Positions 2,117-16,472 of a stretch of 64,000 nt of DNA are shown here, in pieces. Below the pieces are notes generated by a model, which ran no database searches, had not been told where the DNA came from, and saw only the letters and a list, made by a program, of their open reading frames with translations. Position 1 is the first letter of the stretch, and the number at the start of each line of letters is the position of its first letter. The DNA comes from Catenulispora sp. EB89 (lineage in GTDB: Bacteria > Actinomycetota > Actinomycetes > Streptomycetales > Catenulisporaceae): NCBI RefSeq assembly GCF_041261445.1, contig NZ_JBGCCU010000022.1:1-64000 (forward strand), in the 5' to 3' direction. Made by a program: the position numbers and the translations under genes.

Positions 2117-2134
2117 CGACTCCTGCCGAACCGT

Positions 2135-2175
2135 CAGGGTATTGCGAACAGGGTAATGCGAGCAGGGTATTGCGA
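2135..2175. repeat. Three copies of a 14-bp repeat
   Basis: The unit cagggtattgcga occurs at 2135-2147, 2149-2161 (one mismatch) and 2163-2175, with one base between copies. It sits just after the stop of the asparagine-synthetase-like gene and before the shared terminator. Function is unknown; slippage is the simplest origin. Confidence 0.8.
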
Positions 2176-2191
2176 GGGCTTCGATCGGCGC

Positions 2192-2232
2192 AGCACAACC
2201 GGCGCCCGCACGCGGCGGACGCCGGTTGTGCT
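2192..2232. terminator. Bidirectional terminator hairpin
   Basis: A perfect 13-bp inverted repeat (agcacaaccggcg, 2192-2204, paired with 2220-2232) with a 15-base loop separates two convergent genes. There is no T tract, as is common in actinomycetes. Confidence 0.8.
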
Positions 2233-2246
2233 CGCTCAAGCAAGCG

Positions 2247-4862
2247 TCACTGTGTGGTGAGCGACGTGTCGTCGAGGATGAAGTTGGTCGTGCCTCCGTT
2301 CTTGTCGGTCTCGGCGCCGATGAACTTCAGCGCGATGCTCTGTCCGGCGTAGGCGGACAGGTCCGCGGTGTGCTGCGTGTAGCCCGAGGCCTTGTTCAGG
2401 TTGGAGAAGGTGCCGAGCGTGCCGAGCACCGTGCCGGCCGAGTTCACGGCCTGCACCGTGAAGGTGTCGGGCTTGGCGGTCGTGGTCTTCTCGGTCGTGT
2501 CGATGTGCAGCCAGTAGGACAGCGTCGCCTTGCAGCCCGAGGGCACCGCGACGGTCTGCGAGATGGTGTCGGTGTCCTTGCTCCCGTTCCCGTCGAACCA
2601 CGCCACGTACGAACCCGAGTGAGCCGGTTCCGCCGAGGTGGCCTTGGTGATCGGGCTGAGGTTCAGCGTCGAGGTCTGGGTCCAGCCGGTCGCCCCGGAC
2701 TCGAAGCCCGGGTTCGTCAGCAACTGCGCCGCCGAGCACGTGCTCGGCGTGAACGTCGCGGTGTAGGTCGTGTCGGCGGTCGGGGTGACGGCGTGCGTCT
2801 GCGCGCCGCCGTCGGACCAGGACGCGAAGGTCTGCGCCGTGCCCGAGGCGTCGGTCTGGTTCGGCGCGGTCAGGTGCAGCTGGTAGCCGGCCCACGAGGT
2901 GACGGTCGCCGGGGTGGTGACGGTGCCGCCGGGATCCACGTCGTCTTCGGCGATCCCGATCTTCAGCCCGGACGGCTGCGAGGCGAGGCTGATGTGCACC
3001 AGCTGCGGGTTGAAGTCCTGTTCGATCGTCTGCGTCACGCCGTTGGCGTCGGTCCCGGACAGGCAGACCAGCAGCCGGCTGTTGCCCTTGATCGCCGAGA
3101 ACTGCTCCGCCGGCGGTGCGACGAACGACGTCGCCCCGTCGCCGGCCACCGGGTCCAGCACCGGGTGCACGTGGTTGATGTGGAACAGCCACACCTGCCA
3201 GGTCAGCGCCGAGGCGGGCAGGGCGGTGCCGTTGCCGGCGACCGCGGAACCGGCCGGGGTGTAGGTCTGGCCGACGGTGAAGGTGCTGGTCGGGGTCGGC
3301 GAGGTGATGGTCAGCGCCGGTGGCGCGTCGTCGGTGCGGACCGTGCCGGTCGCCGGCGCCGACGTGCCGCCGGCGCTGTTGGTCACCGTCAGCTTCGGGG
3401 TGAAGTCGCCGACCGTGGTGTAGGTGTGGGTGGTCGTCGGTGTCGTGGTGGTCGCCGTGGCGCCGTCGCCGAAGTCCCACTTGTAGGTGAGCGCGCGGCC
3501 GTTGGGGTCGCTGCTCGCCGATCCGTCGAAGGACACGGTGAACGGCGGCTTGCCCGCGGTGGTGGCGTGGGTCGAGCAGTAGTTCAGCAGCCCGGTGGCC
3601 CCGTTGGTGGTGAACGAGGCGTTCGGCGTCGTCGTCCCGGACGTCACCTTGTGGACGGTGCCGCCGATCAGGTCGGTGTAGTACAGCGCCTGCTGGGTGC
3701 CGGTCCCGCCCGGGTTCTGCGGTCCGAACCACATCGAGATCCCGGCCGCCCCGGCCGAGAACGTCTTCAGCCCGGTGCCGCTGGTCCCGGCGGCGTTGAT
3801 CAGGTACTGGTTCTTCTTCACGTAGTCGCTGAACAGGTAGTCACCGTTGTAGGACGGGTTCCAGGCTCCGTTCGGAACGAACGCGCCGCCGGTGATGGAC
3901 CCGCGACCGCCGCCCATGTTGTCGGGGTAGGAGAAGTACGGGTCGACGTACTTCGGGTTCGACGGGTTGCACGGGCCCTCGCAGTTCGGCCAGCCGTAGT
4001 TCCCGCCGGCCTTGAGCAGGTCGATCTCCTCGGTGGTGTTCTCGCCGACGTCGTCCACGAAGATCCGGGTCCCGGAGGCGTTCGGGTCCTGGGCGATCCG
4101 GAACGGGTTGCGGAAGCCGTAGGCGTAGATCTCCTGGCACTTGCCGGAGGTGATGGGTCCGGCGTCGCAGCGGGCCGTGCCCGAGCCGCTGAACGGGTTC
4201 CCGGCCGGGATCGAGCCGTCCGGCTTGATCCGCAGGATCTTGCCGTTGAGCTTGGTCAGGTCCTGCGCGGCCTGGTTCGAGGGGTCGCAGCCCTCCAGGC
4301 AGTGCCCGTCGCCGACCGAGACGTACAGGTCGCCGTCCTTGCCGAAGACCAGGTCGCCGCCGTTGTGGAAGCCGTCGCCCTGGATGCCGTCGACGAGCAC
4401 CTTCTCGCTGCCGGCCACGACGTGGTCCGTGGCGTCCAGGGTGAACCGCGAGACGCGGTTGAAGCAGCTGCCGTTCGTGCTGTGGCTGTAGTACACGTAG
4501 ATGAAGTCGTTCGTGGCGAACGCCGGATCGACCGCGACGCCGAGCATCCCGCGCTCGTCCTGGCCGGGCTGCTTGGCGCAGATGAAGCCGGAGCCGTCGA
4601 GCGCGAGGGTCTGGGCGCCGGCGGTGCTGTAGGCGTAGAGCTGGCCCGGCTTCGTGGTGACGAGCATGCGGCCGTCGGGGGTGAAACTCAGCCCGACCGG
4701 CAGCGTGACGGTGGCGACGACGGTGTCGGAGAAGCCGGTCGGCGGCGTCGCGGCCGCGTTCCCGGCGACCGCGTACACCCCGAGCAGCGTCAAGGCCGCA
4801 GCCAGCGCCGATCGCAGGAGCAGGCCTGCCGTCCGTGGTCTTCTGAGCCCTGGTCTTTGCAC
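2247..4862 (-). CDS. Secreted PQQ-type glucose/sorbosone dehydrogenase with PKD domain
   Basis: The 871-residue protein starts with a GTG preceded by GGTGAGGAG. A Sec signal peptide covers about residues 1-38 and is followed by a six-bladed beta-propeller of the glucose/sorbosone dehydrogenase family (about 45-390), recognisable from its LPVGLSFTPDGRMLV-type opening. A PKD domain with the WDFGDG motif lies at about 434-512, a second beta-rich segment follows, and a C-terminal module (about 715-871) resembles a carbohydrate-binding jelly roll. It probably oxidises extracellular sugars or sugar polymers with PQQ. It is divergent from the inositol-phosphate-synthase/ebo operon and shares a 19-bp operator with it, which suggests the two respond to the same signal. 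Confidence 0.85.
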   Translation of the reverse strand: MQRPGLRRPRTAGLLLRSALAAALTLLGVYAVAGNAAATPPTGFSDTVVATVTLPVGLSFTPDGRMLVTTKPGQLYAYSTAGAQTLALDGSGFICAKQPGQDERGMLGVAVDPAFATNDFIYVYYSHSTNGSCFNRVSRFTLDATDHVVAGSEKVLVDGIQGDGFHNGGDLVFGKDGDLYVSVGDGHCLEGCDPSNQAAQDLTKLNGKILRIKPDGSIPAGNPFSGSGTARCDAGPITSGKCQEIYAYGFRNPFRIAQDPNASGTRIFVDDVGENTTEEIDLLKAGGNYGWPNCEGPCNPSNPKYVDPYFSYPDNMGGGRGSITGGAFVPNGAWNPSYNGDYLFSDYVKKNQYLINAAGTSGTGLKTFSAGAAGISMWFGPQNPGGTGTQQALYYTDLIGGTVHKVTSGTTTPNASFTTNGATGLLNYCSTHATTAGKPPFTVSFDGSASSDPNGRALTYKWDFGDGATATTTTPTTTHTYTTVGDFTPKLTVTNSAGGTSAPATGTVRTDDAPPALTITSPTPTSTFTVGQTYTPAGSAVAGNGTALPASALTWQVWLFHINHVHPVLDPVAGDGATSFVAPPAEQFSAIKGNSRLLVCLSGTDANGVTQTIEQDFNPQLVHISLASQPSGLKIGIAEDDVDPGGTVTTPATVTSWAGYQLHLTAPNQTDASGTAQTFASWSDGGAQTHAVTPTADTTYTATFTPSTCSAAQLLTNPGFESGATGWTQTSTLNLSPITKATSAEPAHSGSYVAWFDGNGSKDTDTISQTVAVPSGCKATLSYWLHIDTTEKTTTAKPDTFTVQAVNSAGTVLGTLGTFSNLNKASGYTQHTADLSAYAGQSIALKFIGAETDKNGGTTNFILDDTSLTTQ

Positions 4863-4895
4863 GTTCCGATCTCCTCACCCGGTGGGTTCCGACGA

Positions 4896-4957
4896 GTTAG
4901 GAAAGATTACTAACGAGAAACGCTGGGGAATATATGAGATACGTGCCAGTCGGTCAA
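4896..4957 (-). promoter_or_regulatory. Promoter and operator of the sugar dehydrogenase
   Basis: On the minus strand TTGACC (4957-4952) is 17 bp from TATATT (4934-4929), close to consensus. About eight bases after the predicted start of transcription lies the palindrome GTTAGGAAAGATTACTAAC (4896-4914). A near-identical palindrome sits at 5082-5100 before the divergent operon. The position fits a repressor roadblock. The sequence is reminiscent of ROK-family repressor sites, but that assignment is inference. Confidence 0.75.
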
Positions 4958-5012
4958 GGGTCTGATTCGTCCGCGATCACAGCAATTCAGGACATGGACC
5001 CCACATGGAGGC

Positions 5013-5084
5013 CGGCACTACCGTGCGATCTGGTTCGCAGGACGTTGACGCACCTGCGGGGCGGCACTACCGTGCCATCGGGTT
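5013..5084 (+). repeat. Duplicated 23-bp promoter segment
   Basis: A 23-bp segment beginning cggcactaccgtgc occurs at 5013-5035 and 5062-5084 with two mismatches, 49 bp apart. Each copy carries TACCGT, but only the second has a matching -35 element. The first looks like a decayed or weak copy of the operon promoter. Confidence 0.75.
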
Positions 5085-5100
5085 AGGAAAGTTACCTAAC
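5045..5100 (+). promoter_or_regulatory. Promoter and operator of the inositol-phosphate/ebo operon
   Basis: TTGACG (5045-5050) and TACCGT (5068-5073) are separated by exactly 17 bp. Transcription should begin near 5080, and the palindrome GTTAGGAAAGTTACCTAAC (5082-5100) follows at once. It differs at only two positions from the palindrome at 4896-4914 in front of the divergent sugar dehydrogenase. A single repressor binding both would control the two units together. Confidence 0.75.
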
Positions 5101-5124
5101 TATCAAGCGGAGGGTTGTCGAAGG

Positions 5125-6330
5125 GTGGCGGCGATGACGTTCTCGGATTCGGACGAGATCCCGGCGGCGACCGGGGTCTGGCTGGTGGGTGCCCGGGGCT
5201 CGGTCGCGGTGACCGCGATCGCCGGGGCCGCAGCGCTGCGGGCCGGGCTGCTGGAGCCGATCGGCTGTGTGACGGCGGCGCCGGAGTTCGCCGCGGCCGG
5301 GTTGCCCGACTACGCGGACCTGGTGTTCGGCGGCCACGACGTCAGCGACGTCAGCGTCCTGAAACAGGCCGCGGAGCTCGCCGCCGACGGTGTGCTCCCG
5401 GCCGGGATCCTGGCGGCGGTCGCCGACGGGCTGCGCGCGGCCGACGCCGCGATCCGCTCCGTGCCGCCGCCCGCCGACGACCCCCGGCCGGTCCGCGAGC
5501 GCATCAGGAGCCTGATCGCCGACCTCGAGGAGTTCCGGACCGTCCGGCGGCTGCGCCGGGTCGTGGTCGTCAACGTGGCCTCGACCGAGCCGCCGACCGC
5601 GGAACAGCCCTGGCAGCACAGCCTGGCCGAGTTGGAGGCCGCGCTGGACCGGGACGAGGCGGAGCTCGCGCCGAGCACGCAGTACGCCTACGCCGCGCTG
5701 CGTGCCGGCTGTTCCTATGTGGACTTCACGCCGTCGACCGGCGCGCGGCTGCCCGCCCTGGACGAGTTGGCCCGGTCGGCCGGCGTCCCCTACGCCGGCA
5801 GCGATGCGAAGACCGGCGAGACGCTGCTGGTCTCCGCGCTCGCGCCGATGTTCACCTCGCGTGCCCTGCGCGTCCGCTCGTGGTCCGGGACCAACCTGCT
5901 CGGCGGCGGCGACGGCGCGACCCTCGACGACGCCGGAGCCGCGGCGAGCAAGACCGTCTCGAAACGCCGCGGCCTGGACCGGCTGCTCGGCGCGCCGGTC
6001 GAAGGCCGCACGCACATCGACAACGTCCCCACGCTGGGCGGATGGAAGACCGCCTGGGACCACATCGGGTTCGAGGGCTTCGGCGGCGTCCGGATGACGA
6101 TGCAGCTCACCTGGCAGGGCTGCGACTCGGCGCTGGCCGCGCCGCTGGTGCTGGACCTGGCGCGGCTGCTGGCCCGAGCCCACGACGGCGGTGCGGTCGG
6201 CGCGTTCGCCCCGGCCGCGTTCTTCTTCAAGGACCCGGTCCCGGCCGGCCCCGGGGCGGACGTCGAGTACGGGCTGGCGCGCCAGTACGAGGCGCTGCTG
6301 GCCTGGGCCGCCTCGGTGGCGGGCTCCTGA
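5125..6330 (+). CDS. ino1: Inositol-3-phosphate synthase family cyclase
   Basis: The 401-residue protein has the two-domain layout of myo-inositol-phosphate synthase, an NAD-dependent cyclase that turns glucose 6-phosphate into inositol phosphate. A Rossmann glycine motif (VGARGSVA) lies near the N terminus, NVASTEPP near residue 155, and the family's SDAKTGET and SWSGTNLLGGGDG segments follow in the centre. The GTG at 5125 has GGAGGG ten bases upstream; the in-frame ATG at 5134 is the alternative. It is the first gene of a seven-gene operon and its TGA overlaps the next start by one base. In ebo loci elsewhere a dehydroquinate-synthase-like cyclase, EboD, is found, so this gene may take its place. 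The actual substrate is not shown by sequence. Confidence 0.88.
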   Translation: MAAMTFSDSDEIPAATGVWLVGARGSVAVTAIAGAAALRAGLLEPIGCVTAAPEFAAAGLPDYADLVFGGHDVSDVSVLKQAAELAADGVLPAGILAAVADGLRAADAAIRSVPPPADDPRPVRERIRSLIADLEEFRTVRRLRRVVVVNVASTEPPTAEQPWQHSLAELEAALDRDEAELAPSTQYAYAALRAGCSYVDFTPSTGARLPALDELARSAGVPYAGSDAKTGETLLVSALAPMFTSRALRVRSWSGTNLLGGGDGATLDDAGAAASKTVSKRRGLDRLLGAPVEGRTHIDNVPTLGGWKTAWDHIGFEGFGGVRMTMQLTWQGCDSALAAPLVLDLARLLARAHDGGAVGAFAPAAFFFKDPVPAGPGADVEYGLARQYEALLAWAASVAGS

Positions 6331-7223
6331 TGGCCGAGGCACCCGATATCAGGGCACTGGCCGAACTGCTCCGGGCCCCGGCGGCGTTCAGCGTGCCCGG
6401 CGACGTGTTCGCCGGAGCCGCCGCGGCCGGGCGGCCGATCGGCGCGCGCGCCTGCGGCACGGCGGCCGCCTCCGTGTGCCTGTACTGGGCCGGGATGGCA
6501 CTCAACGACCACGCCGACCGGTTCGTCGACGTCTTCGAACGCCCGGAACGGCCGCTGCCCTCCGGCCGCGTCCGGCCCGGGACCGCTCTGGCCATCGCCG
6601 GGGGCCTGACCGCCGCCGGACTCGGCATCGCGGCGCTGTCCGGGGGAGTGCGGACCCTGACGGTCGCCGCCCCGCTGGCCGCAGCCGTGTGGGGATACGA
6701 CCTCGGGTTCAAGGACGGGTCCTGCGGTCCGGCCGCGATGGCCGCCGCCCGGAGCCTGGACGTGCTCATGGGTGCGGGTGTCGGAGCGCTGCGCGCCGCG
6801 GCACCGGCCGCGGCCGTCGTCGGCGTGCACACCCTGGCCGTCACCGTGCTCAGCCGCAGCGAGGTGCACGGCGCGTCCCGGCGCGTCGCCGCGACCACGG
6901 CGGCCTTGAGCGGCACGGCGGCCGGCGGCGCGCTGGCCGTGCTCGGTCGCGGTCGCGGCCGACGCTCCGCGCCGCGACCTCAGCGCGCCTTCGCCACGGC
7001 GCTCGCCGGCCTGTACGCGTGGCGGGTCGGCGGCGCGCAGGCCGCGGTCGCCCGGGACGGCCGCGCCGACGTCGTCCGCAAGGCCGTCGGCGCGGGAATC
7101 ATGAGCCTGATGCCGTTGCAGGCGTCCCTCATCGCGGGCCGCGGCGAACCCCTCGCCGCGCTCCCGGTCGCGGCGGCCGGCCCGCTCGCGCGCCGCCTGG
7201 CCCGCAAGGTGTCCCCGACATGA
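6330..7223 (+). CDS. eboC: UbiA-family prenyltransferase, EboC-like
   Basis: A 297-residue integral membrane protein of the UbiA superfamily, which transfers a polyprenyl group from its diphosphate to an acceptor ring. The first metal-binding motif is NDHADRFVD, followed by ERPERPLPSGR, typical of the family. The second Asp-rich motif is weak (YDLGFKDGS around residues 115-125). Several Ala/Gly-rich hydrophobic helices account for the rest. The ATG overlaps the preceding TGA by one base, and the following gene overlaps by four, so translation is coupled. By context it is the EboC counterpart and would lipidate a cyclitol- or sugar-like product at the membrane. Confidence 0.85.
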   Translation: MAEAPDIRALAELLRAPAAFSVPGDVFAGAAAAGRPIGARACGTAAASVCLYWAGMALNDHADRFVDVFERPERPLPSGRVRPGTALAIAGGLTAAGLGIAALSGGVRTLTVAAPLAAAVWGYDLGFKDGSCGPAAMAAARSLDVLMGAGVGALRAAAPAAAVVGVHTLAVTVLSRSEVHGASRRVAATTAALSGTAAGGALAVLGRGRGRRSAPRPQRAFATALAGLYAWRVGGAQAAVARDGRADVVRKAVGAGIMSLMPLQASLIAGRGEPLAALPVAAAGPLARRLARKVSPT

Positions 7224-8062
7224 CCCGCTTCGGCTACGGCACCAACGGCTTCGCCGACCACCGGCTCGATGACGCCCTGGCGATCATGGCCGACCTCGGC
7301 TACGACGGCGTCGCGCTGACCCTGGACCACCAGCACCTGGACCCCTACGCCGCCGACCTCGCCGCGCGGGTCTCGGCGCTGGCCCGGCTCCTGGACCGGC
7401 TGGGGCTCGACGTCGTCATCGAGACCGGCGCGCGCTACCTGCTCGATCCGTGGCGCAAACACCAGCCGACGCTGGTGTCGGAGGAGCCCGGAGGGCGGGC
7501 GGTGCGCATCGATCTGCTGACCCGCGCGGTGCGGATCGCCGCCGATCTCGGGGCGCAGGCCGTGTCGTTCTGGAGCGGGACCGCATCAGTGGACTGCGAC
7601 CGCGCGACGGCTCTCGACCGGGTGGCGGCGGGCTGCGAGACGGTGCTCGCCGCGGCCCAGAAGGCGGGCGTCGTCCTCGGCTTCGAACCGGAACCGGGCA
7701 TGGCCGTCGACACCCTCGACCGGTTCGCCGAGCTGCGGGAGGTCCTCGGACGCCCCGACGGGTTCGGTGTGACGCTGGACATCGGGCACTGCCGGTGCCT
7801 GGAGCCGGTCCAGGTGGCCGACTGCGTCGCGTGGGTCGCGGACTGCCTGGTCAACGTGCAGATCGACGACATGCGCCGAGGCGTGCACGAGCACCTGGAG
7901 TTCGGCCAGGGGGAGATCGACTTCCCGCCGGTGCTGCGGGCGTTGTCAGAGGCCGGATACACCGGCCTGGTCTCCGTCGAGCTGCCGCGCCATTCCCACG
8001 CCGCCGTGCGCGTGGCGGCCGAATCGCTGACGTTTCTCCGGAAGGCGGCGGAATCCGCATGA
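7220..8062 (+). CDS. Sugar phosphate isomerase/epimerase-like TIM barrel
   Basis: A 280-residue protein of the AP-endonuclease-2/xylose-isomerase TIM-barrel superfamily. Likely metal ligands are the Glu in FEPEPG, Asp and His in TLDIGH and the Glu in VELPRH, in the order expected for IolE/IolI-type enzymes. Members of this family isomerise or dehydrate sugars and inososes. The gene begins with an ATGA overlap with the prenyltransferase and ends with another ATGA overlap with eboA. It is an additional TIM barrel besides EboE, and with the cyclase upstream it could process a cyclitol intermediate. Confidence 0.8.
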   Translation: MTRFGYGTNGFADHRLDDALAIMADLGYDGVALTLDHQHLDPYAADLAARVSALARLLDRLGLDVVIETGARYLLDPWRKHQPTLVSEEPGGRAVRIDLLTRAVRIAADLGAQAVSFWSGTASVDCDRATALDRVAAGCETVLAAAQKAGVVLGFEPEPGMAVDTLDRFAELREVLGRPDGFGVTLDIGHCRCLEPVQVADCVAWVADCLVNVQIDDMRRGVHEHLEFGQGEIDFPPVLRALSEAGYTGLVSVELPRHSHAAVRVAAESLTFLRKAAESA

Positions 8063-8682
8063 CAGGCCCGATCTCAGTGCCCGATCTCGAAGCCGCCTTC
8101 CAGGCCGGAGCGCCGGACCGGGCGTGGAAATGGCTTGCCGACGCACGTCGGCAGGTCGCCCGGGACCGGGGTGCACTCGAGCTGCTGTTCCCCGCCGCCG
8201 CGCGGGCCTGCGGTCGCGCGCGGCTGCCGTCGTTGTTGCCGTCGCCGGATCGCTGGCGCACCGACGACGTGGCCCGCGTGCTCGTGCTGGCGTCGATGGC
8301 GTGGCGGGACCCCGACCGGCTGCACGGCCTCTACGACCACGGCGACGCCGACGAGAAGCGCGCGATCCTGCTGGCCCTGGACTTCATCGAGGTCGGCGAC
8401 GGCGGACTGGCGATCGTCGAGGACGCGCTGCGGACCAACGACACCAGGCTCATCACCGCCGCGCTCGGCCGCTACGGCGCCCGGCATCTGTCGGCGTCCG
8501 CCTATCGGCAGGCGATCCTCAAAGCCGTGTTCTGCGGCATCCCGCTGGCCGCGGTGTCCGGGCTGGACGACCGTGCCGACGCGGAGTTGGCGCGGATGCT
8601 GGGGGACTTCGTCCGGGAGCGGTCCGTGGCCGGGCGCACCGTTCCCGACGACGTGTGGTCGATCCTCGCGCGATTCCCGTGA
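8059..8682 (+). CDS. eboA: EboA domain protein
   Basis: The 207-residue, mostly helical protein matches the EboA family, for example in its VARVLVLASMAWRDPDRL and ILLALDFIEVGD segments. It has no signal peptide or membrane span. EboA has no established biochemical role; it is the signature gene of ebo loci, which in cyanobacteria are required to move the scytonemin monomer to the periplasm. The start overlaps the previous stop (ATGA). After the stop there are 50 bases containing tgatccgcc twice before the next gene. Confidence 0.82.
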   Translation: MTGPISVPDLEAAFQAGAPDRAWKWLADARRQVARDRGALELLFPAAARACGRARLPSLLPSPDRWRTDDVARVLVLASMAWRDPDRLHGLYDHGDADEKRAILLALDFIEVGDGGLAIVEDALRTNDTRLITAALGRYGARHLSASAYRQAILKAVFCGIPLAAVSGLDDRADAELARMLGDFVRERSVAGRTVPDDVWSILARFP

Positions 8683-8732
8683 ATTCCCCGACTCCCCTGA
8701 TCCGCCTGATCCGCCTGACTTAGGAGCCGCTG

Positions 8733-9593
8733 ATGCGCATCTTCGATCCGCACGTCCACATGACCTCGCGGACCACCGACGACTACCAGGCGATGGCGGC
8801 GGCCGGCATCCGGGCGCTGGTCGAGCCCGCGTTCTGGCTCGGTCAGCCGCGGACCTCGGTCGGCAGCTTCGTCGACTACTTCGACGCCCTGCTGGGCTGG
8901 GAGCCGTTCCGCGCGGCGGGTTTCGGCGTGCGGCACCACTGCGCGCTGGCGCTGAATCCCAAGGAGGCCAACGATCCCCGCTGCCGGGAGGTGCTCGACG
9001 TGCTCGACCGCTACCTGGCCAAGGACCGGGTGGTCGCGGTCGGGGAGGTCGGCTACGACTCGATGACGCCGCAGGAGGACGAGGTGTTCGCGATCCAGCT
9101 CGACCAGGCGCGGCGGCACGACCTGCCGGTGCTCGTGCACACGCCGCACCGGGACAAACGGGAAGGGACGCTGCGGAGCCTGGACGTCGTGCGCGAGTCG
9201 GGGCTGCCGGCGGGCCGGGTGCTGCTCGACCATCTCAATGAGCTGACGGTTGCGCCGGTGCTGGAGGCGGGGTGCTGGGCCGGGTTCTCGATCTATCCGG
9301 ACACCAAGATGGACGAGCGCCGGATGGTCGCGGTCCTGCGCGAACACGGGACCGAGCGGATCCTGGTGAACTCCGCCGCCGACTGGGGACGCAGCGATCC
9401 GCTCAAGACCGTCCGCACCGCCGAGGCGATGCTTGCCGCCGGGTTCGACGACAAGGACGTGGACCGGGTGCTGTGGCGCAATCCGGTCGAGTTCTACGGC
9501 CAAAGCGGCCGGCTGGTGCTCGACGAGGCGCCGGGTCCGTTGGCCGAGAGCTTCCGGGGCAGTTCGGTGCGACGTGGAGAGGCGGGGGAGTAG
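8733..9593 (+). CDS. eboB: TatD-family metal-dependent hydrolase, EboB-like
   Basis: A 286-residue amidohydrolase-superfamily protein. Its metal ligands are visible in order: DPHVHM at the N terminus, Glu in VGEVGYD, His in LVHTPH, His in LLDHLNE and Asp in NSAADWG. TatD proteins are hydrolases that use two metal ions. The ATG at 8733 has TTAGGAG eight bases upstream. The following gene starts two bases after the stop. Context makes it the EboB component; the substrate is unknown. Confidence 0.85.
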   Translation: MRIFDPHVHMTSRTTDDYQAMAAAGIRALVEPAFWLGQPRTSVGSFVDYFDALLGWEPFRAAGFGVRHHCALALNPKEANDPRCREVLDVLDRYLAKDRVVAVGEVGYDSMTPQEDEVFAIQLDQARRHDLPVLVHTPHRDKREGTLRSLDVVRESGLPAGRVLLDHLNELTVAPVLEAGCWAGFSIYPDTKMDERRMVAVLREHGTERILVNSAADWGRSDPLKTVRTAEAMLAAGFDDKDVDRVLWRNPVEFYGQSGRLVLDEAPGPLAESFRGSSVRRGEAGE

Positions 9594-9595
9594 CG

Positions 9596-10765
9596 GTGCG
9601 CTTGCGTCATGCGGACGGCACGGCCGTGCATCTCGGGTACTGCGCGAACGTGCACCCCGTCGAGGACGTCGCCGGGGTCCTGGAACAGCTCGCGGTCTAC
9701 GCCGAGCCCGTGCGGCTCGCGCTCGGGGCCGACCGGCTGGGGATCGGGCTGTGGCTGGCCCGCGAGGTCGCCGCCGGACTGGCCGCCGATCCCGGCGCGA
9801 CCGCCCGGCTGGCCGCCGAGCTCGCCGCGCGCGGCCTGGAGGTCGTGACGCTCAACGGCTTCCCCTACTCGGGGTTCGGGGACGCGGCGGTGAAGTACCG
9901 CGTCTACCAGCCGGACTGGTCTGACCGCCGCCGTGCCGAGTACACCGCCGACCTGGCCACGGTCCTGGCCGGGCTGCTGCCCGGCGACGCGGCCCGGGGC
10001 TCGATCTCGACGCTGCCGCTGGCGTGGCGGGAGCCGTGGCCGGACTCGGCGCGGGACGCGGCCCGGCGGCACGTGGACCTGGTCGCGGACCACCTCGCGG
10101 ATCTGGCCGCGCGCACCGGCGCGGTGATCCGGGTCGGATTCGAGGCGGAGCCGGGCTGTGTCATCGAGCGGACGGAGCAGGCGGTGGCGGCGCTCGCCGG
10201 GTTTGATCCCGCGTACTTCGGCGTGTGCGTCGACACCGCTCATCTGGCGGTCGCGCACGAGGATCCCGCCCTGGCGCTGAAGATGCTTGCCGCTGCCGGG
10301 ATCCCGGTGGTGAAGCTCCAGGCGTCGGCGGCGCTGGAGGCGTCGCAGCCCTCTGATCCGGCGACGCTGACTGCCTTGGCGCGCTTCGCCGAGCCGCGCT
10401 ATCTGCACCAGACCCGGGAATCGGTGGCCGGCGGACTGCGCGGCACCGACGACCTCGACGAGGCGTTGCGCGGCGACAGCCTGCCCGGGGCCGCTCCGTG
10501 GCGGGTGCACTTCCACGTTCCGCTGCACGCCGAGATCGCCCCACCGCTGGCCGGGACGCACGAGGTGCTGATCAGAACACTGACGGAGTTGTTCGGCGGC
10601 GACACGGCGGTGACCGACCACGTCGAAGTCGAGACGTACACCTGGCAGGTGCTGCCCGCCGGCTCGCGCCCTGGAAACGACCTGGAGCTGGCGCTGGGGA
10701 TCGCCTCGGAGGTGGCGTGGGCGCGGACCGAGCTCGTGCGGGCCGGGCTGGAGGCGGAGTCGTGA
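9596..10765 (+). CDS. eboE: EboE-like metabolite traffic TIM-barrel protein
   Basis: A 389-residue protein with a xylose-isomerase-like TIM barrel and the EboE hallmarks: an N-terminal LGYCANVHPVEDV segment, the NGFPYSGF motif at about residue 83, FEAEPG, and VCVDTAHLAVAHE as probable metal or substrate residues, then HFHVPLH and VEVETYTWQVLP near the C terminus. I chose the GTG at 9596, five bases after GGCGGGGGAG, because upstream extension runs into the TatD gene. The stop overlaps the next start as GTGA. In ebo loci this protein is part of the set needed to make or export a periplasmic product. Confidence 0.85.
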   Translation: MRLRHADGTAVHLGYCANVHPVEDVAGVLEQLAVYAEPVRLALGADRLGIGLWLAREVAAGLAADPGATARLAAELAARGLEVVTLNGFPYSGFGDAAVKYRVYQPDWSDRRRAEYTADLATVLAGLLPGDAARGSISTLPLAWREPWPDSARDAARRHVDLVADHLADLAARTGAVIRVGFEAEPGCVIERTEQAVAALAGFDPAYFGVCVDTAHLAVAHEDPALALKMLAAAGIPVVKLQASAALEASQPSDPATLTALARFAEPRYLHQTRESVAGGLRGTDDLDEALRGDSLPGAAPWRVHFHVPLHAEIAPPLAGTHEVLIRTLTELFGGDTAVTDHVEVETYTWQVLPAGSRPGNDLELALGIASEVAWARTELVRAGLEAES

Positions 10766-12132
10766 CGCTGGTGGTGCTCGACGTCGTGGGGCTGACGCCC
10801 CGGCTGCTCCGGCACACGCCGGCGCTGCGGTCGGTGGCCGACACCGGGTTCCAGGCCCGGCTGACGCCGTCGTTCCCGGCGGTGACGTGCAGCGTGCAGG
10901 CCGGGATGCTGACCGGGGCGGAGCCGGCGGAGCACGGGATCGTGGGCAACGGCTGGTACTTCCGTGACCTCGGCGAGCCGTTGCTGTGGCGGCAGCACAA
11001 CCGGCTCGTCGGCGGCGAGCTGTTCTGGGACGTGCTGCGCCGGGAGCAGCCCGGGGCGACCGTGGCGAACGTCTGCTGGTGGTACGCGATGGGCGCCGCG
11101 ACGGACTGGACGGTGACGCCGCGGCCGGTCTACCGCGCGGACGGACGCAAGGACCCGGATTTCTACGCCCGGCCGCCCGAGCTGCACGACGAGCTCACCC
11201 GGCGGCTCGGGGACTTCCCGCTGTTCCACTACTGGGGGCCGACCGCGTCGATCAAGTCCACGCGCTGGATCGTGGCGGCGGCGGGGCGGATCCTCATGGC
11301 GCACCGGCCCGACGTGCTGCTGGTGTACGTCCCGCACCTGGACTACGACCTTCAGCGCTTTGGGCCCGACGATCCCCGGGCCGTCGCCGCCGCGCGCGAG
11401 GTCGACGCGGCTGTCAGACCGCTGATCGAGGCCTGCCGCGCGCGGGGGGACGACCTGCTGTGCGTCTCCGAGTACGGCATCACGCCGGCCTCCAGGCCGG
11501 TGCACGTCAACCGGGCCCTGCGCGCCGCCGGGCTGCTGGAGGTGCACACGCAGGACGGTATGGAGTACTTGGATCCGTGGGCGTCCCGCGCGTTCGCGGT
11601 CGCCGATCACCAGGTCGCGCACATCTACGTCGCCGACCCCGCAGATTTGGCACGGGCCCGCGCCGTCGTCGCGGAGCTCGACGGCGTCGACGAGGTGCAC
11701 GGCGCGGTGGGCAAGGAGAAGCTGCGGATCGACCACGCGCGCGCCGGCGAGCTCATCGCCGTCGCCGAGCCCGACGCCTGGTTCACGTACTACTACTGGC
11801 AGCACGACGACCGGGCTCCGGATTTCGCGCAGACGGTCGAGATCCACCGCAAGCCCGGCTACGACCCGATGGAACTCCTCTTCGACCCGGCGAACCCGAA
11901 CGCGGCCCGGATGCGCGCCGCGAAGGCGCTGGCCCGCAAGAAGGCGGGGCTGCGGTACCGGATGGATGTCGTCGGGCTCGACGCCTCGGCGGTGCGCGGG
12001 TCGCACGGCCGGTTGCCGGACAGCGCGGAGGACGGTCCGGTGCTGTTGTGTTCGCGGCCTGAGTTCGAGCGGGAAGGGTTCGCGGCGAGTGATGTGAAGG
12101 GGTTGATGTTGGGGCTGGCTTCGCGGCGGTGA
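10762..12132 (+). CDS. eboF: Alkaline-phosphatase-superfamily phosphodiesterase, EboF-like
   Basis: The 456-residue protein is a type I phosphodiesterase/nucleotide pyrophosphatase. Visible hallmarks are VLDVVGLTP at the N terminus, the nucleophile segment PSFPAVTCSVQAGMLTG with Thr in the usual place, the VYVPHLDYDLQRFG metal site and a late EYGIT segment. These enzymes cleave phosphodiester or pyrophosphate bonds. There is no signal peptide, so it acts inside the cell unless carried by partners. It starts with a GTGA overlap and ends the operon, ten bases before a strong terminator. By position and family it is the EboF component. Confidence 0.85.
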   Translation: MTLVVLDVVGLTPRLLRHTPALRSVADTGFQARLTPSFPAVTCSVQAGMLTGAEPAEHGIVGNGWYFRDLGEPLLWRQHNRLVGGELFWDVLRREQPGATVANVCWWYAMGAATDWTVTPRPVYRADGRKDPDFYARPPELHDELTRRLGDFPLFHYWGPTASIKSTRWIVAAAGRILMAHRPDVLLVYVPHLDYDLQRFGPDDPRAVAAAREVDAAVRPLIEACRARGDDLLCVSEYGITPASRPVHVNRALRAAGLLEVHTQDGMEYLDPWASRAFAVADHQVAHIYVADPADLARARAVVAELDGVDEVHGAVGKEKLRIDHARAGELIAVAEPDAWFTYYYWQHDDRAPDFAQTVEIHRKPGYDPMELLFDPANPNAARMRAAKALARKKAGLRYRMDVVGLDASAVRGSHGRLPDSAEDGPVLLCSRPEFEREGFAASDVKGLMLGLASRR

Positions 12133-12141
12133 CGCGCACCC

Positions 12142-12177
12142 CCGACCGGTACCGAGCCACTGCTCGGTACCGGTCGG
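12142..12177. terminator. Terminator of the ebo-type operon
   Basis: A perfect 15-bp stem (12142-12156 with 12163-12177; it contains ccgaccggtacc) closes on a 6-base loop. It lies ten bases after the operon stop and also faces the convergent glycosidase gene, so it can work in both directions. Confidence 0.88.
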
Positions 12178-12192
12178 AGGTTTCGGCATGTA

Positions 12193-13359
12193 TCAGGATC
12201 CTGTGGGTGTCCGTAGCTGCTCGTTCATGATCAGGAACGAGCCCAGACCGTGGAAGTCGTTCGTGGCCTGGGTCCGGCCGATGTAGTACGCGTAGTTCCC
12301 GACGTTCGTCCCGATCGAGATGGTCGTCAGGTTCGTCAAGCCGTTGCTCCCGATCGAGAGCCGCGCGAGCACGCCGTGGTACGCCTTTTGAGCCAGCGCG
12401 GCGTAGTGCGAGTCGATGTAGCCCTGTTGCGCGCCTCGCGAGAGCGTGTAGGCGTTCATGCTGGAACACGAGGTCTCGGTCCAGTTCCCGGCGCCGGTGG
12501 GCTTGTCGATGACCTGGAACCAGCGTCCGGTCGCCGGGTCCTGGTACTGCTGCAGCCCGGCGGCGAAGCGGTTCAGGTCGGTGAGCAGTGTGGCGCGGCC
12601 CGGCTGGTTGGTCGGGACGTCGTCCAGGGCGGTCACCACCGCCATGCCGTACCAGCCGTTCGCGCGGCACCACTGCTCCGGCGACAGGCCGGTCGTCGGG
12701 TTCGCCCAGCTCGCGGTCTTGGACTCGTCGTAGGCGTGCTGGAGCAGGCCGTCGGGCTGCTGGAGGTGGTTGGCGTAGACGGTCAGCTGCTTGACCGCCT
12801 CGGCGTCGCTGCTCGGGTCGTTGAACTCCTTGCCGTACTCGGCGAGGAAGGGCACGACCATGTACAGGCCGTCGTCCCACAGCTGGTGCGCGCGGGAGGA
12901 GGTGTCGGCGTGCCAGAACCCGCCGTCGGCGGTGCGCGGGTAGCTGTCCAGGCGGTGGCGGATCGTGGCCGCCGCGACCGCGTACCGGGACTGGCCGGTC
13001 TCGTGGTGCAGGATGATCAGCAGCCGCCCGGCGAGCATGCTGTCCAGGCTGTTGAAGCTCTGGTTGATGGTGCCGTTCGCGGAGACGAAGCGGTCGACCC
13101 AGCTCTTCAGATACGTCAGATACGCCGCATCATGGGTGCGCAGGTAGACCTGGTACTGGCCGTACAGGTAGAGGCCGACGGGGTACGACCAGCCGCCGAT
13201 GGTGGCCGGGGTGAAGCGCTGCATCGTGGACTTGACCACCGCGACCGACCAGTCGGTGGTCGCCGCGGCCCGGGCCGGCAGCGCACCGGCCGCGGCCAGG
13301 ACGGTGGCGAGCAGCATGAGCAGGGACTGTCGCAGAACACGGACTCTGGATCTTCGCAT
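12193..13359 (-). CDS. Secreted GH105/GH88-type unsaturated glycuronyl hydrolase
   Basis: A 388-residue secreted protein. Met1 at 13359 follows GGAAGGG and begins a signal peptide ending near ARA-AATT. The mature part is an (alpha/alpha)6 barrel of the YteR/YesR type that removes unsaturated galacturonic acid from pectic oligosaccharides produced by lyases. The catalytic-aspartate regions are probably HQLWDDGLYM and the SPEQWCRANGWYGMA segment. It stands alone between the ebo terminator and a near-consensus TTGACA promoter. The longer in-frame start at 13395 has no ribosome binding site. Confidence 0.85.
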   Translation of the reverse strand: MRRSRVRVLRQSLLMLLATVLAAAGALPARAAATTDWSVAVVKSTMQRFTPATIGGWSYPVGLYLYGQYQVYLRTHDAAYLTYLKSWVDRFVSANGTINQSFNSLDSMLAGRLLIILHHETGQSRYAVAAATIRHRLDSYPRTADGGFWHADTSSRAHQLWDDGLYMVVPFLAEYGKEFNDPSSDAEAVKQLTVYANHLQQPDGLLQHAYDESKTASWANPTTGLSPEQWCRANGWYGMAVVTALDDVPTNQPGRATLLTDLNRFAAGLQQYQDPATGRWFQVIDKPTGAGNWTETSCSSMNAYTLSRGAQQGYIDSHYAALAQKAYHGVLARLSIGSNGLTNLTTISIGTNVGNYAYYIGRTQATNDFHGLGSFLIMNEQLRTPTGS

Positions 13360-13393
13360 ATCAGGACCCTTCCGACACGTCGACGGAATCGCC

Positions 13394-13433
13394 ATACGAT
13401 ATACGATGTATCGGCTCGGGGAATTCCTGTCAA
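13394..13433 (-). promoter_or_regulatory. Promoter region of the GH105 gene
   Basis: On the minus strand a perfect TTGACA (13433-13428) lies upstream of an AT-rich stretch containing atacgat twice in tandem (13394-13400 and 13401-13407) followed by gtatcg. The stretch overlaps the expected -10 region and could hold a regulator site. The -10 hexamer itself is not clear. Confidence 0.45.
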
Positions 13434-13758
13434 GGATCCTTACACGTTCTTCCGCGAAGGCTCACGCCGAAGTGACGATCGAAACGGCGGAGCGGGGCGG
13501 CGAATCGAGGCCGTGACGTGGGTCGGCGAGGCGGGTCGGGCGAACCCGCCGTAGGGCGTGTTTGAGAAGTGGGGTCACAGCCAGTCGTTGATGGCGGTGG
13601 TCTGCACGGTGGCCCTCTTCAGCCGAGGCTTTGTTTTTACGTGGCCGACTGCGTGGTTCCACCGATGTGGGGCGACCGGCGGGATGCGAAACTCGTGGGG
13701 CTCATGGCACGCAGGATTCTGCGTCATCGAAAGAAGCGCTCACATCACGGAGTCCTTA
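13434..13758. other. Gene-free gap, possible insertion-sequence remnant
   Basis: No convincing gene is present between the GH105 promoter and the lipoprotein start. The stretch from about 13553 (gggcgtgtttgagaagtggg) resembles the ends of IS5-type elements common in streptomycetes, and composition from there to 13740 is less GC-rich than around it. No transposase reading frame survives, and a matching opposite end was not found. The resemblance is from memory. Confidence 0.25.
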
Positions 13759-14481
13759 GTGCACACCAAGAACATCGGGCTCGCCGCCGCGGCGTTCACC
13801 GTCGCGTTCGGCACCGCGGCGTGTGGGACGTCCGGCAGCACGGCGGCGACGTCGCATCCGAAGCCGGCGGCGACCCCGACCACGGCTCGCAGCGCCGGCC
13901 CCTTCGACGGCAACCAGCTGAAGGCCGCGCTGCTGGACGCGTCGAACTGGGGAAGCGGCTGGACCGACATCGTCGACGGGCCGCTCGTCAAGACCAGCGG
14001 GTTCGGAACGATCGCCCAGATCCCGTCCGAGCCGTGCACGGTCGCGTTCGGCACGGGCGCCGCACGGAACGGCGCGGTGGCGTCCGTGGAGGACATCGTC
14101 GACTCGCACACGGGCGACATAGCGTTGCAGAACATCTACCAGTACGGCCCCGGCGACGCGGCCACCATGATGACCGACATCGCCAAGAAGATGGACAGCT
14201 GCGGGACCTTCAAGTACACGGACGACAACAAGGCCACCACCACGGACGTAACCCGCGAGCAGCCGGTCCCCGGGCTCGGCGACCAGGCGATCAAGATCGT
14301 CGTCACGTCCGTCAGCCTGCAGAACCCCGAGAATTTCGAAACCCAGCTGTGGGTGCGGTACGGCGACGTCGTCATTGACGTGAGGTACGACTCGTCCGTC
14401 TCCGCCCACGCGGACGGCTACGACCTGGCTGGCAAGGCCAAGGCCATCGAGGCCAAGCTCGGGAAGACGGCCACCGGCTGA
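13759..14481 (+). CDS. Putative lipoprotein, PknH-like sensor fold possible
   Basis: A 240-residue exported protein beginning with GTG at 13759 behind ACGGAG. The short signal peptide ends in the lipobox FGTAACG, so the mature protein starts at Cys and is anchored in the membrane. A Thr/Ala/Pro-rich linker follows, then a globular domain with two further cysteines (PSEPC and DSCGTF) that may form a disulfide. Spacing and length resemble the extracellular sensor domain of PknH-type proteins, but similarity is too weak for a firm call. The open frame reaches back to 13558, but that part is in the gene-free gap. Confidence 0.65.
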   Translation: MHTKNIGLAAAAFTVAFGTAACGTSGSTAATSHPKPAATPTTARSAGPFDGNQLKAALLDASNWGSGWTDIVDGPLVKTSGFGTIAQIPSEPCTVAFGTGAARNGAVASVEDIVDSHTGDIALQNIYQYGPGDAATMMTDIAKKMDSCGTFKYTDDNKATTTDVTREQPVPGLGDQAIKIVVTSVSLQNPENFETQLWVRYGDVVIDVRYDSSVSAHADGYDLAGKAKAIEAKLGKTATG

Positions 14482-14592
14482 GCACTCGACTTCTCGGACC
14501 CGGTCTGGATTTCGGGCTGGCCAAGTCCCCACGCGCCACACCGAGATCATCCCGGCGCGGCGCGATCAACGCGACAGGGTTCTAAGACACTA

Positions 14593-15420
14593 CTAGTCCC
14601 GCTTGCGCGCCGTCCCGCCCCACACCCCGACATCGGCGGGCTCGCCGAACGGGTTGGGATCCGGCCGCCACAGCTGGATCGGCACGATGCCGGGCTCCAG
14701 CACGTCCAAGCCGTCGAACAGCCCGACGATCTGCTCGGGCTCGCGCAGGTAGTACGGCGCGCCGCCGCTCTCGTTGTAGAGCGCGGTGGCCTTCGCGTTC
14801 GCCTCGTTGGTGACGGCGCTCTCGTTCAGCGCCAGATAGCTGCCCGGCGGCAGCGCCTGCATCAGGGTATTGACGATCGCCCTGGCCTGCGCGTCGTCGT
14901 CGGCGTTCGACACGTGCCCGAGCACCTGCATCAGGATCAGCGCGACCGGCTCGTCGAAGTCCAGCGTCTGGCGCGCCTCGCGGATGATCGTGTCGGGGTC
15001 GAGCAGATCCGCCTCGATGTAGGCGGTGGCCCCTCGCGGGTCGCTGATCAGCAGCGCGTTGGCGTGCGCCAGGATCAGCGGATCGTTGTCGACGTAGACG
15101 ATGCGCGCCTCGGGGTCGACCCGCTGGGCGACCTCGTGGGTGTTGTCGGCGGTCGGCAGCCCGGTGCCGATGTCCAGGAACTGGCGGATGCCGACTTCGC
15201 CGGCGAGGTGCCGGATGACGCGCCCGAGGAAGTACCGGGAGAGCCGGGCCAGGTCGAAGATCCCCGGGTAGACGGCGGCGAACTGGTCGCCGGCCTCGCG
15301 GTCCACCGCGTAGTGGTCCTTGCCGCCGAGCCAGTAGTTCCAGACCCGGGCCGAATGCGGCACGGTGGTGTCGATCCTGGGTATGTCCTGTGCCTCAGGG
15401 ATCTCGGGCTCGCCGGTCAT
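14593..15420 (-). CDS. SAM-dependent methyltransferase, DUF574 family
   Basis: A 275-residue protein of the actinomycete-specific methyltransferase family PF04672. The opening IDTTVPHSARVWNYWLGGKDHYAVDR is characteristic, the SAM-binding motif is FLDIGTGLP at about residue 87, and VYVDNDP follows as the acidic motif. It is transcribed divergently from an XRE/DUF5753 regulator, a frequent pairing in actinomycetes. The methyl acceptor is not known for this family. Confidence 0.9.
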   Translation of the reverse strand: MTGEPEIPEAQDIPRIDTTVPHSARVWNYWLGGKDHYAVDREAGDQFAAVYPGIFDLARLSRYFLGRVIRHLAGEVGIRQFLDIGTGLPTADNTHEVAQRVDPEARIVYVDNDPLILAHANALLISDPRGATAYIEADLLDPDTIIREARQTLDFDEPVALILMQVLGHVSNADDDAQARAIVNTLMQALPPGSYLALNESAVTNEANAKATALYNESGGAPYYLREPEQIVGLFDGLDVLEPGIVPIQLWRPDPNPFGEPADVGVWGGTARKRD

Positions 15421-15542
15421 CGTGGCTTCTTTCTATCTCCGGGCTCTGACACTCTTATTCCTAACACAGTTTCCCGGCACCGTGCGTGTTCATGGGTTGA
15501 GGGGTTGTGGGTACAGTGGTGGGTGCAGGGAAGGGGACGCAG

Positions 15543-16439
15543 ATGGCGGCCGATCGTGGCGAGCAGGCCCTTGACAACAGCCTGGGAAACCCGACGGTCC
15601 CCCGGATCCTGTTGGGGGCCCAGTTGCGCCGTCTGCGCACGGCCGCGGGCATCAGCAGGGCTTCGGCGGGCTATGCGATAAGGGGCTCCGATTCGAAGAT
15701 CAGCCGCATGGAGTTGGGGCGGATCAGCTTCAAGCCGCGTGATGTCAGGGATCTGCTGACTTTGTACGGGGTCTGCGACGAAGCCGAGCGCGCCATGCTG
15801 TTGGAGCTGATGGACCAGGCGAACGCGCAGAGCTGGTGGCACGAGTTCGCCGACGTCGTCCCCGGCTGGTTCGAGGCCTACCTCGGCCTGGAGGACGCCG
15901 CCTCGGTCATCCGCTGCTACCAGACCCGCCTGGTCCCCGACCTGTTGCAGACCGAGGACTACGCCCGCTCGGTGATCCGGCTGGGGAACCCGCTGGCCGA
16001 TCCGGTCGAGGTCGAGCGCCGGGTGGCGCTGCGGATGAACCGGGCGCGGGTGCTGCGGCGGCCGCGTCCGCCCAAGGTGTGGGCGGTGCTCGACGAGGCC
16101 GTGTTGCGCCACCCGCCCGGTGGGCGCGGCGAGCCGATGCGGGCGCAGGTGGAGTACCTGCTGGAGCTGTCCCGGCTGCCGCACGTCACGGTGCAGGTGG
16201 TGCCGTCCCGTCGCAGTCCGCGGTACGCCGACGCGGGCGCCGGGCCTTTCAGCATCCTGCGTTTCCCGGAGGCGGCGCTGCCGGACATCGTCTATCTCGA
16301 GCAGCTCACCAGCGCCACCTACCTGGACAAGGCCGACGACCTCGACGTCTACGCGACGGTGATGGATCAGTTGTGCCTGGACGCGATCGCGGCCCCGGAC
16401 ACGATCGCGCTCTTCGACGACGTGATCAAGGGGCCGTGA
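15543..16439 (+). CDS. XRE-family regulator with DUF5753 (Scr1-like antitoxin)
   Basis: A 298-residue cytoplasmic regulator with an N-terminal helix-turn-helix (about residues 15-70, containing RTAAGISRASAGYAIRGS and ISRMELG) and a C-terminal DUF5753 domain beginning near WWHEFADVVPGWFEAYLGLE. Such proteins usually pair with a small DUF397 protein in WhiJ- or Scr1-like systems; no DUF397 gene is next to it here. The ATG at 15543 follows GGGAAGGGGA. It may regulate the divergent methyltransferase. Confidence 0.88.
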   Translation: MAADRGEQALDNSLGNPTVPRILLGAQLRRLRTAAGISRASAGYAIRGSDSKISRMELGRISFKPRDVRDLLTLYGVCDEAERAMLLELMDQANAQSWWHEFADVVPGWFEAYLGLEDAASVIRCYQTRLVPDLLQTEDYARSVIRLGNPLADPVEVERRVALRMNRARVLRRPRPPKVWAVLDEAVLRHPPGGRGEPMRAQVEYLLELSRLPHVTVQVVPSRRSPRYADAGAGPFSILRFPEAALPDIVYLEQLTSATYLDKADDLDVYATVMDQLCLDAIAAPDTIALFDDVIKGP

Positions 16440-16472
16440 CGGCGCGCCATCGGCGCCGGCGGTGCTCGCGAC

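Follow-up and report, generated by a model that had tools for sequence, protein, structure and literature searches.

The stretch of DNA analysed here, called the window, comprises the first 64,000 nucleotides of contig NZ_JBGCCU010000022.1 of Catenulispora sp. EB89 (G000:C22:1-64000; the genome is 11.9 Mb in 70 contigs), and context upstream of the system under study is limited to 5 kb. That system is an ebo-type operon of seven co-directional genes on the + strand, from 5134 to 12132, in which the place of the cyclase EboD is taken by a member of the myo-inositol-1-phosphate synthase (MIPS) family. The layout of the operon is as follows.

5134..6330, + strand: gene 1, MIPS-family cyclase in the role of EboD, 398 amino acids (PF07994, 2.4e-47; PF01658, 7.8e-28)
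6330..7223, + strand: gene 2, EboC-type UbiA prenyltransferase of the SCO3242 family, 297 amino acids (NF045897, 361 bits, cut-off 260)
7220..8062, + strand: gene 3, xylose-isomerase-like triosephosphate isomerase (TIM) barrel, here TIM3, 280 amino acids (PF01261, AP_endonuc_2, 1.9e-39)
8059..8682, + strand: gene 4, EboA, all-helical, 207 amino acids (NF035938, 153.7 bits, domain cut-off 50)
8733..9593, + strand: gene 5, EboB, TatD-like metal-dependent hydrolase, 286 amino acids (PF01026, 3.2e-14)
9596..10765, + strand: gene 6, EboE, xylose-isomerase-like TIM barrel, 389 amino acids (NF035939, 409.3 bits, cut-off 250)
10762..12132, + strand: gene 7, EboF, type I phosphodiesterase / nucleotide pyrophosphatase family, 456 amino acids (PF01663, 1.2e-61)

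The junctions between these genes are, in order, -1, -4, -4, +50, +2 and -4 nucleotides, as in the initial annotation, which described overlaps of one to four bases between most neighbours and one larger gap of 50 bp. The end of the operon at 12132 also agrees with that annotation. Its start at 5125 does not: the ATG at 5134 aligns across sister species, and the GTG at 5125 is also in frame. The EboA and EboE models, proposed at that time as a check, score far above their cut-offs. The match to EboA is to its domain, since gene 4 scores 77.1 bits against the full EboA family NF035937, below the cut-off of 320. Similarly, gene 2 scores 117.6 bits against the curated EboC equivalog NF035940, below the cut-off of 250, and belongs to the sister equivalog NF045897. 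The EboB and EboF homologues are clustered with the other ebo genes. NCBI already names the ebo parts one by one.

To place the operon among its relatives, 41 Actinomycetota loci were examined, namely the window and 40 fetched loci; the latter comprise 30 of the 40 other places found among 60 relatives, and one locus from each of 10 more distant genomes. Loci are designated by L numbers and genomes by G numbers. EboE is present in 36 of the 60 relatives, the window's own genome included, at 41 loci. A survey of 396 genomes from the whole phylum found it in 19, with 18 scores above the cut-off. All seven genes are found in 33 of the 41 examined loci (bit score above 60 to the window proteins), a count in which L049, lying outside the protein set, is scored as lacking them. 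Translated searches add EboC in L060 (a short match) and in L072, bringing the number to 35 of 41. The expectation that an actinobacterial ebo-type operon would have the same seven-gene order in relatives is thus borne out, and a chance gene order is ruled out by this recurrence.

The initial annotation called the first gene a cyclase within an ebo-type set. The seven-gene set stands, but an EboD identity for gene 1 is excluded by the matches to both Pfam domains of the MIPS family. Gene 1 also aligns with the MIPS structure of Archaeoglobus fulgidus (PDB 1u1i) over 356 residues with an E value of 5.2e-62. It is not a recent copy of the housekeeping INO1, as follows. Its score against the mycothiol INO1 equivalog TIGR03450 is 36.4 bits for a cut-off of 638, and ebo MIPS and housekeeping MIPS separate cleanly in an unrooted tree of 36 ebo sequences and 12 of the 31 housekeeping sequences extracted. 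Identity to the housekeeping INO1 type is about 28% over 198 residues. Nine residues that we take to be catalytic were checked; they are numbered here as in A. fulgidus, which in the aligned region means one more than the window residue. All 36 ebo MIPS retain eight of them (N255, D225, D261, K274, K278, K306, D332 and K367), and all 36 have Gly in place of D259. According to the printed alignments, K278 and K367 are positions altered in deposited structures. The single match to the DHQ-synthase family in the genome lies on contig C27, apart from both of its ebo operons. Gene 1 probably encodes an active cyclase that makes inositol phosphate as a head-group precursor.

MIPS occupies the same place and order in 36 of the 41 Actinomycetota ebo loci (the window and 35 of the 40 fetched), and EboD is found in one, L041. 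L050, L062 and L068 have no linked MIPS; for L050 and L068, each a second copy, the genome's other ebo copy does bear MIPS, and the L062 genome has an extra, unlinked MIPS. L064 has MIPS and lacks TIM3. L049 (G330:C21:17000-36900) looks broken, with a split EboE, a short EboC match and no match to MIPS or TIM3. For other phyla, the set consists of the best 80 of at least 576 confirmed stretches, some of them short contigs. EboD is present in 77 of these 80 loci and MIPS in none; L100, L105 and L133 have neither. In a FastTree phylogeny of EboE (126 rows, with long-branch warnings), one change separates 40 MIPS-type from 78 EboD-type rows, the 8 rows with neither cyclase being outside the change count. 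Among the 60 relatives, two or more MIPS genes occur in 36 of 36 EboE-bearing genomes versus 2 of 24 others (Fisher 2e-14, kinship ignored), MIPS lies within 12 kb of 37 of the 41 EboE loci, and the EboE-bearing genomes, all 36 and no others, are those in which the SCO3242-family prenyltransferase exceeds its cut-off. The replacement of EboD by MIPS is old and clean.

The remaining proteins differ in how closely they match those of EboD-type loci, with median identities of 50% for EboB, 47% for EboF, 32% for EboE, and 29% for both EboC and EboA. No MIPS or TIM3 counterpart was found in the EboD-type loci searched, and TIM3 was seen only in MIPS-type loci. It follows that the two types probably share whatever EboB and EboF act on, and that the prenyl acceptor may differ between them. 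The AlphaFold2 model of EboA is all-helical (predicted local distance difference test, pLDDT, 93.5) and finds no PDB entry with an E value of 0.001 or less; it gives the impression of a helical-repeat scaffold. The EboE model (pLDDT 93.4) is nearest in fold to sugar 3-epimerases, with IolE, IolI and a 3-dehydroshikimate dehydratase also among the matches. That EboC prenylates is quite likely.

A secreted partner is predicted from a gene divergent from the operon, as follows.

2247..4862, - strand: glucose/sorbosone dehydrogenase (GSDH) beta-propeller and PKD protein, about 871 amino acids, with a signal-like N-terminus (GTG start at 4862, not certain)

The part from 2250 to 4793 matches PF07995 (8.7e-48) and PKD_4 (1.5e-16), and its PDB matches include 2ism (3.5e-30) and 3a9g (8.2e-30). 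A homologue 86-96% identical adjoins the operon in the four sister-species loci. GSDH lies within 12 kb of at least 30 of the 41 EboE loci in the 60 relatives, versus 0.43 expected by chance placement. Its placement varies: in this genus it is divergent from the operon, in the other main family of the order it lies upstream in the same direction, and in L042, L046 and L047 it lies downstream. The linkage is therefore not one frozen arrangement, though many of the rows are kin. In L065 (1216-4887), a single protein of 1224 amino acids beside ebo joins GSDH, PKD, CBM6, ThuA and 3-keto-disaccharide hydrolase domains. In other phyla, GSDH or ThuA homologues occur near 6 of the 80 loci (of four scanned, two are GSDH and two are ThuA without GSDH), a count that has no chance baseline and is given no weight.

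ScyE, the secreted partner in scytonemin clusters, is likewise a beta-propeller. MIPS-type ebo has a ScyE-family gene close by in G041 and on plasmid L076, and one at a distance of 13 kb on L078. As a general partner in this order, however, ScyE is rejected, since its family cut-off is reached in 7 of the 60 genomes, and only in G041 by one full-length match that lies beside ebo. A ScyE-like match was found in 3 of the 80 other-phylum loci (L097, L098 and L124).

The interval between the GSDH gene and gene 1 contains two promoter-like sites and two operator-like sites, as follows.

4896..4914: CsnR-box-like operator 1, immediately following the GSDH promoter; AGGAAAGATTACT, which differs from the published consensus at 2 places and retains positions 5 and 9
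4929..4957, - strand: GSDH promoter-like site, TTGACC-17-TATATT (the one found in a scan of 4780-12300, 0.1 expected)
5045..5073, + strand: operon promoter-like site, TTGACG-17-TACCGT (picked by eye and similar in the sister alignment; the scan did not flag it)
5082..5100: CsnR-box-like operator 2, AGGAAAGTTACCT, 1 mismatch, positions 5 and 9 kept, between the promoter and gene 1

The consensus tested, AGGAAANTTTCCT, and the importance of positions 5 and 9 are taken from published work on the CsnR box (PMC6097792). The palindromes GTTAGGAAAGATTACTAAC and GTTAGGAAAGTTACCTAAC are the sole places in the 64 kb with at most 3 mismatches, where 0 are expected. Both recur in all five genus loci of this type (the window and the four sister-species loci) with at most 1 change to the pattern, and they resemble the csnN106 operator as printed in PMC3048496. 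The genome as a whole has 13 CsnR-box-like places at no more than 2 mismatches, versus 0 for a reversed control. Eleven of these places lie outside the window, and for 10 of them one adjacent gene was scanned; the families found were glycoside hydrolases (GH75, GH46, GH9 and GH2), ROK, ricin-B lectin and PAPS reductase, and three of the 10 genes gave no family match. The ROK gene adjoins the box at G000:C3:516928. The published CsnR regulon takes in csnR and chitosanase genes of the families GH46, GH2, GH5 and GH75 (PMC6097792). The motif is also present in 7 of 7 further genomes of the genus, three of which lack EboE, as expected of a chitosan regulon that ebo joined. We predict that the operon is controlled by chitosan here, which the operators make likely.

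Isoprenoid genes are found beside several of the operons. A polyprenyl synthetase adjoins ebo in L034, L035, L038, L040, L042 and L046, and a partial one in L037; in the sister species of L038 (full) and L037 (partial) the gene is inside the divergon, between the GSDH gene and gene 1. L034 (G000:C10:286300-306200) is the second ebo operon of the window's own genome. It is preceded by IspG and IspH genes (1521-4107) and followed by genes for a polyprenyl synthetase, an MMPL protein and Dxs (12010-17176), which all run in the direction of the operon, and L035 has the same flanking families. These neighbours speak for an isoprenoid made for this purpose and, with less weight, for its export. In L034, TIM3 and EboA form one fused reading frame of 544 codons (6939-8570); an actinobacterial EboA fused to a xylose-isomerase-like protein was already remarked upon by Yurchenko et al. 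(PMC5133447).

The initial annotation saw no other biosynthetic enzymes attached to the seven genes and suggested that they might encode a minimal product by themselves. This suggestion is not supported, in view of the divergent GSDH gene with its common operators in all five genus loci, of the polyprenyl synthetase inside the divergon of one sister species and the partial one in another, and of the four Streptomyces plasmids examined, on which the same seven genes lie beside nonribosomal peptide synthetase (NRPS), type II polyketide synthase (PKS) or ScyE-family genes. On the Streptomyces camelliae plasmid NZ_CP115301.1 (L076, 9221-29181), a ScyE-family gene, MIPS-type ebo, an aromatic prenyltransferase, a multicopper oxidase and cydABDC lie within 20 kb. 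On the linear Streptomyces plasmids L077 and L079, MIPS-type ebo follows, by a few genes, NRPS, ornithine carbamoyltransferase and major facilitator superfamily genes. With the published role of ebo in scytonemin synthesis, these plasmid neighbours make the module look like a helper more than a stand-alone product cluster.

We propose that chitosan induces the cells to make a prenylated membrane lipid of inositol type, which acts outside the membrane with a secreted oxidoreductase, as follows. The MIPS-like enzyme would close glucose-6-phosphate to inositol phosphate. The two TIM barrels, EboB and EboF would trim the head group by isomerising, dehydrating and dephosphorylating it, in an order that we leave unspecified. 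EboC, a membrane enzyme, would attach the prenyl chain, and EboA would hold the proteins together. On the outer side of the membrane, the lipid would carry or present the substrate of a secreted beta-propeller oxidoreductase, which would be GSDH here and ScyE in scytonemin clusters. In this genus, a CsnR-like ROK repressor would turn on the operon and the GSDH gene together upon the arrival of chitosan fragments. A prenylated cyclitol-type product had been suggested initially, and it would fit the enzymes better now that the cyclase is placed in the inositol-phosphate synthase family. In proposing a carrier we follow Klicki et al. (PMC6282210), and would extend their model by a head of inositol type, by GSDH as the partner and by the chitosan switch. 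In the Nostoc ebo mutants that were studied, eboD not among them, the scytonemin monomer is kept in the cytoplasm; ebo and scyE mutants accumulate the same monomer, which reaches the periplasm in the scyE mutant and not in the ebo mutants (PMC6282210). That the product is a lipid acting outside the membrane we regard as evenly balanced, and the chain as a whole is put forward tentatively, as slightly more doubtful than that.

Several points weigh against this proposal. Among the matches listed, 11 of the 41 EboE loci have no GSDH within 12 kb, the genome's own second operon included, and six of the seven genomes that pass for ScyE do so by summed pieces, none near an ebo locus. The linked loci share ancestry, so that the counts overstate their independence. 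No polyprenyl synthetase lies beside the window operon itself. The CsnR-box-like sites carry 1-2 mismatches, and of 45 loci scanned, only the five genus loci have them and the 40 others have none; chitosan control is therefore claimed for this genus only. Regarding the chemistry, the ring released by sugar phosphate cyclases of the EboD kind is said to carry no phosphate (PMC5133447), and with a phosphorylated ring from MIPS, the head groups may differ between the two types. The one EboC homologue that was assayed farnesylated quinolines (PMC9235831), and in the ebo literature searched no report of a native substrate was found for any ebo enzyme.

An explanation closer to the initial annotation and to Yurchenko et al. 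is that the operon makes a free prenylated cyclitol, a defensive or signalling secondary metabolite, the neighbouring genes serving only for its tailoring or export. The case made by Yurchenko et al. is for an isoprenoid-cyclitol, and they cite BE-40644 as a precedent (PMC5133447); chitosan induction would suit an antifungal role, and the second copy has MMPL and polyprenyl synthetase genes at its side. However, the neighbours of the four plasmid operons looked at fit a helper, and the Nostoc ebo mutants studied block the maturation of another compound (PMC6282210), so that we consider a free metabolite unlikely. The sugar-related genes nearby, ThuA, 3-keto-disaccharide hydrolase, Gfo/Idh/MocA, AP_endonuc_2 and ROK, could also be read as placing the cluster in amino-sugar or 3-keto-sugar metabolism, with MIPS and TIM3 as a sugar-salvage unit and only a minor anchoring role for EboC; the CsnR-box-like sites that precede chitosanase-family genes in the same genome are in line with this. 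Yet such neighbours are few near the 80 EboD-side loci (Gfo/Idh/MocA-like at 5, an AP_endonuc_2 neighbour at 1, GSDH or ThuA at 6; ROK was not searched), and the presence of EboC in exactly all 36 EboE-bearing genomes argues that it is not optional. Sugar salvage seems to us very improbable.

The operons might instead make a membrane-bound redox carrier or cofactor for the secreted beta-propeller oxidoreductases GSDH and ScyE, that is, a quinone-like prenylated ring obtained by cyclitol dehydration. The linkage to GSDH and, less often, to ScyE is what such a carrier would predict, and in two Bacteroidota neighbours GSDH is joined to a cytochrome c domain, although the Bacteroidota linkage has no chance baseline. 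PqqC, for the cofactor pyrroloquinoline quinone (PQQ), is found in 7 of the 60 genomes, with 5 of the 36 EboE-bearing ones among them and the genome studied here not, which speaks for another carrier but does not decide the matter, since PQQ can be scavenged. The modelled fold of EboE, with its likeness to IolE, IolI and a 3-dehydroshikimate dehydratase among others, would be compatible with such dehydration. The accumulation of one monomer in both Nostoc ebo and scyE mutants also speaks for a carrier, whereas its presence in the periplasm of scyE but not ebo mutants is something that a pure cofactor would not explain (PMC6282210). In its general form, this explanation would have ebo operons produce a hitherto undescribed lipid-anchored redox carrier whose prenylated, cyclitol-derived ring is supplied by EboD in most phyla and by MIPS in Actinomycetota, working at the outer face of the membrane with secreted beta-propeller oxidoreductases such as ScyE and GSDH. 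We think it quite unlikely; if true, quinone-like carriers could be reached by a route not described before.

Ebo operons span many bacterial phyla and some algal plastids, and the exchange of their cyclase for one from an unrelated family whose chemistry is known hints strongly at the nature of the head group. The linked secreted oxidoreductase points to the outer face of the membrane, and the predicted chitosan switch offers a simple growth condition in which to seek an operon-dependent isoprenoid. A role would also be suggested for the genes SCO3242 and SCO3243 of the Streptomyces coelicolor calcium-dependent antibiotic (CDA) cluster, beside which the rest of ebo presumably lies.

Other features at these loci are the following.

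12193..13395, - strand: GH88-family protein (PF07470, 6.7e-88), a genus-conserved neighbour and a candidate only as a member of the system
206-2116, + strand: large protein near the contig end, with weak asparagine-synthase similarity (E 1.2e-4)

The GH88-family gene adjoins the operon in all five loci of the type, with a different orientation in L038. The large protein has a partial match in L036. Small TMEM220-family membrane proteins adjoin Bacteroidota ebo operons (L158:12562-12951 and L153:5563-5967); their two clusters are found at 12 and 13 of the 80 loci, the family being assigned from one scanned member each.

Comparison with known systems gives the following picture. Gene 1 keeps the active-site lysines of A. 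fulgidus MIPS and differs from it in the Gly that replaces D259 in all 36 ebo MIPS. The regulatory features resemble the CsnR regulon of Streptomyces (PMC6097792, PMC3048496) in an operator beginning GTTAGGAAA, in a ROK gene with its own box, and in boxes at GH46, GH2 and GH75 genes; control of an ebo operon is not mentioned in the CsnR passages of those papers. SCO3242, which gives its name to the window's EboC family, and SCO3243, annotated as a myo-inositol phosphate synthase, belong to a peptide antibiotic cluster (PMC3610822), unlike the genes here. Among the papers listed in the literature searched, which did not include subscription journals and preprints, we found neither the MIPS replacement, nor the GSDH divergon, nor a link of chitosan to ebo, and the word "inositol" was not found in the ebo papers that were text-searched. 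The eboA-F operons of cyanobacteria, Bacteroidota and eustigmatophyte plastids (PMC5133447) share with the window homologues of EboA, EboB, EboC, EboE and EboF in one operon. By sequence family, the operon is of the ebo kind in its EboA, EboB, EboE and EboF, and departs from it in two defining features: EboD is replaced by a MIPS-family enzyme together with an additional TIM barrel, and EboC falls in a separate NCBIfam equivalog. Finally, the scytonemin ebo cluster of Nostoc punctiforme (PMC6282210) is induced by ultraviolet A, whereas chitosan control is predicted here, and no role in scytonemin synthesis is proposed for the window operon. The likeness between the two is that of a helper module tied to a secreted enzyme, ScyE in Nostoc and GSDH here.

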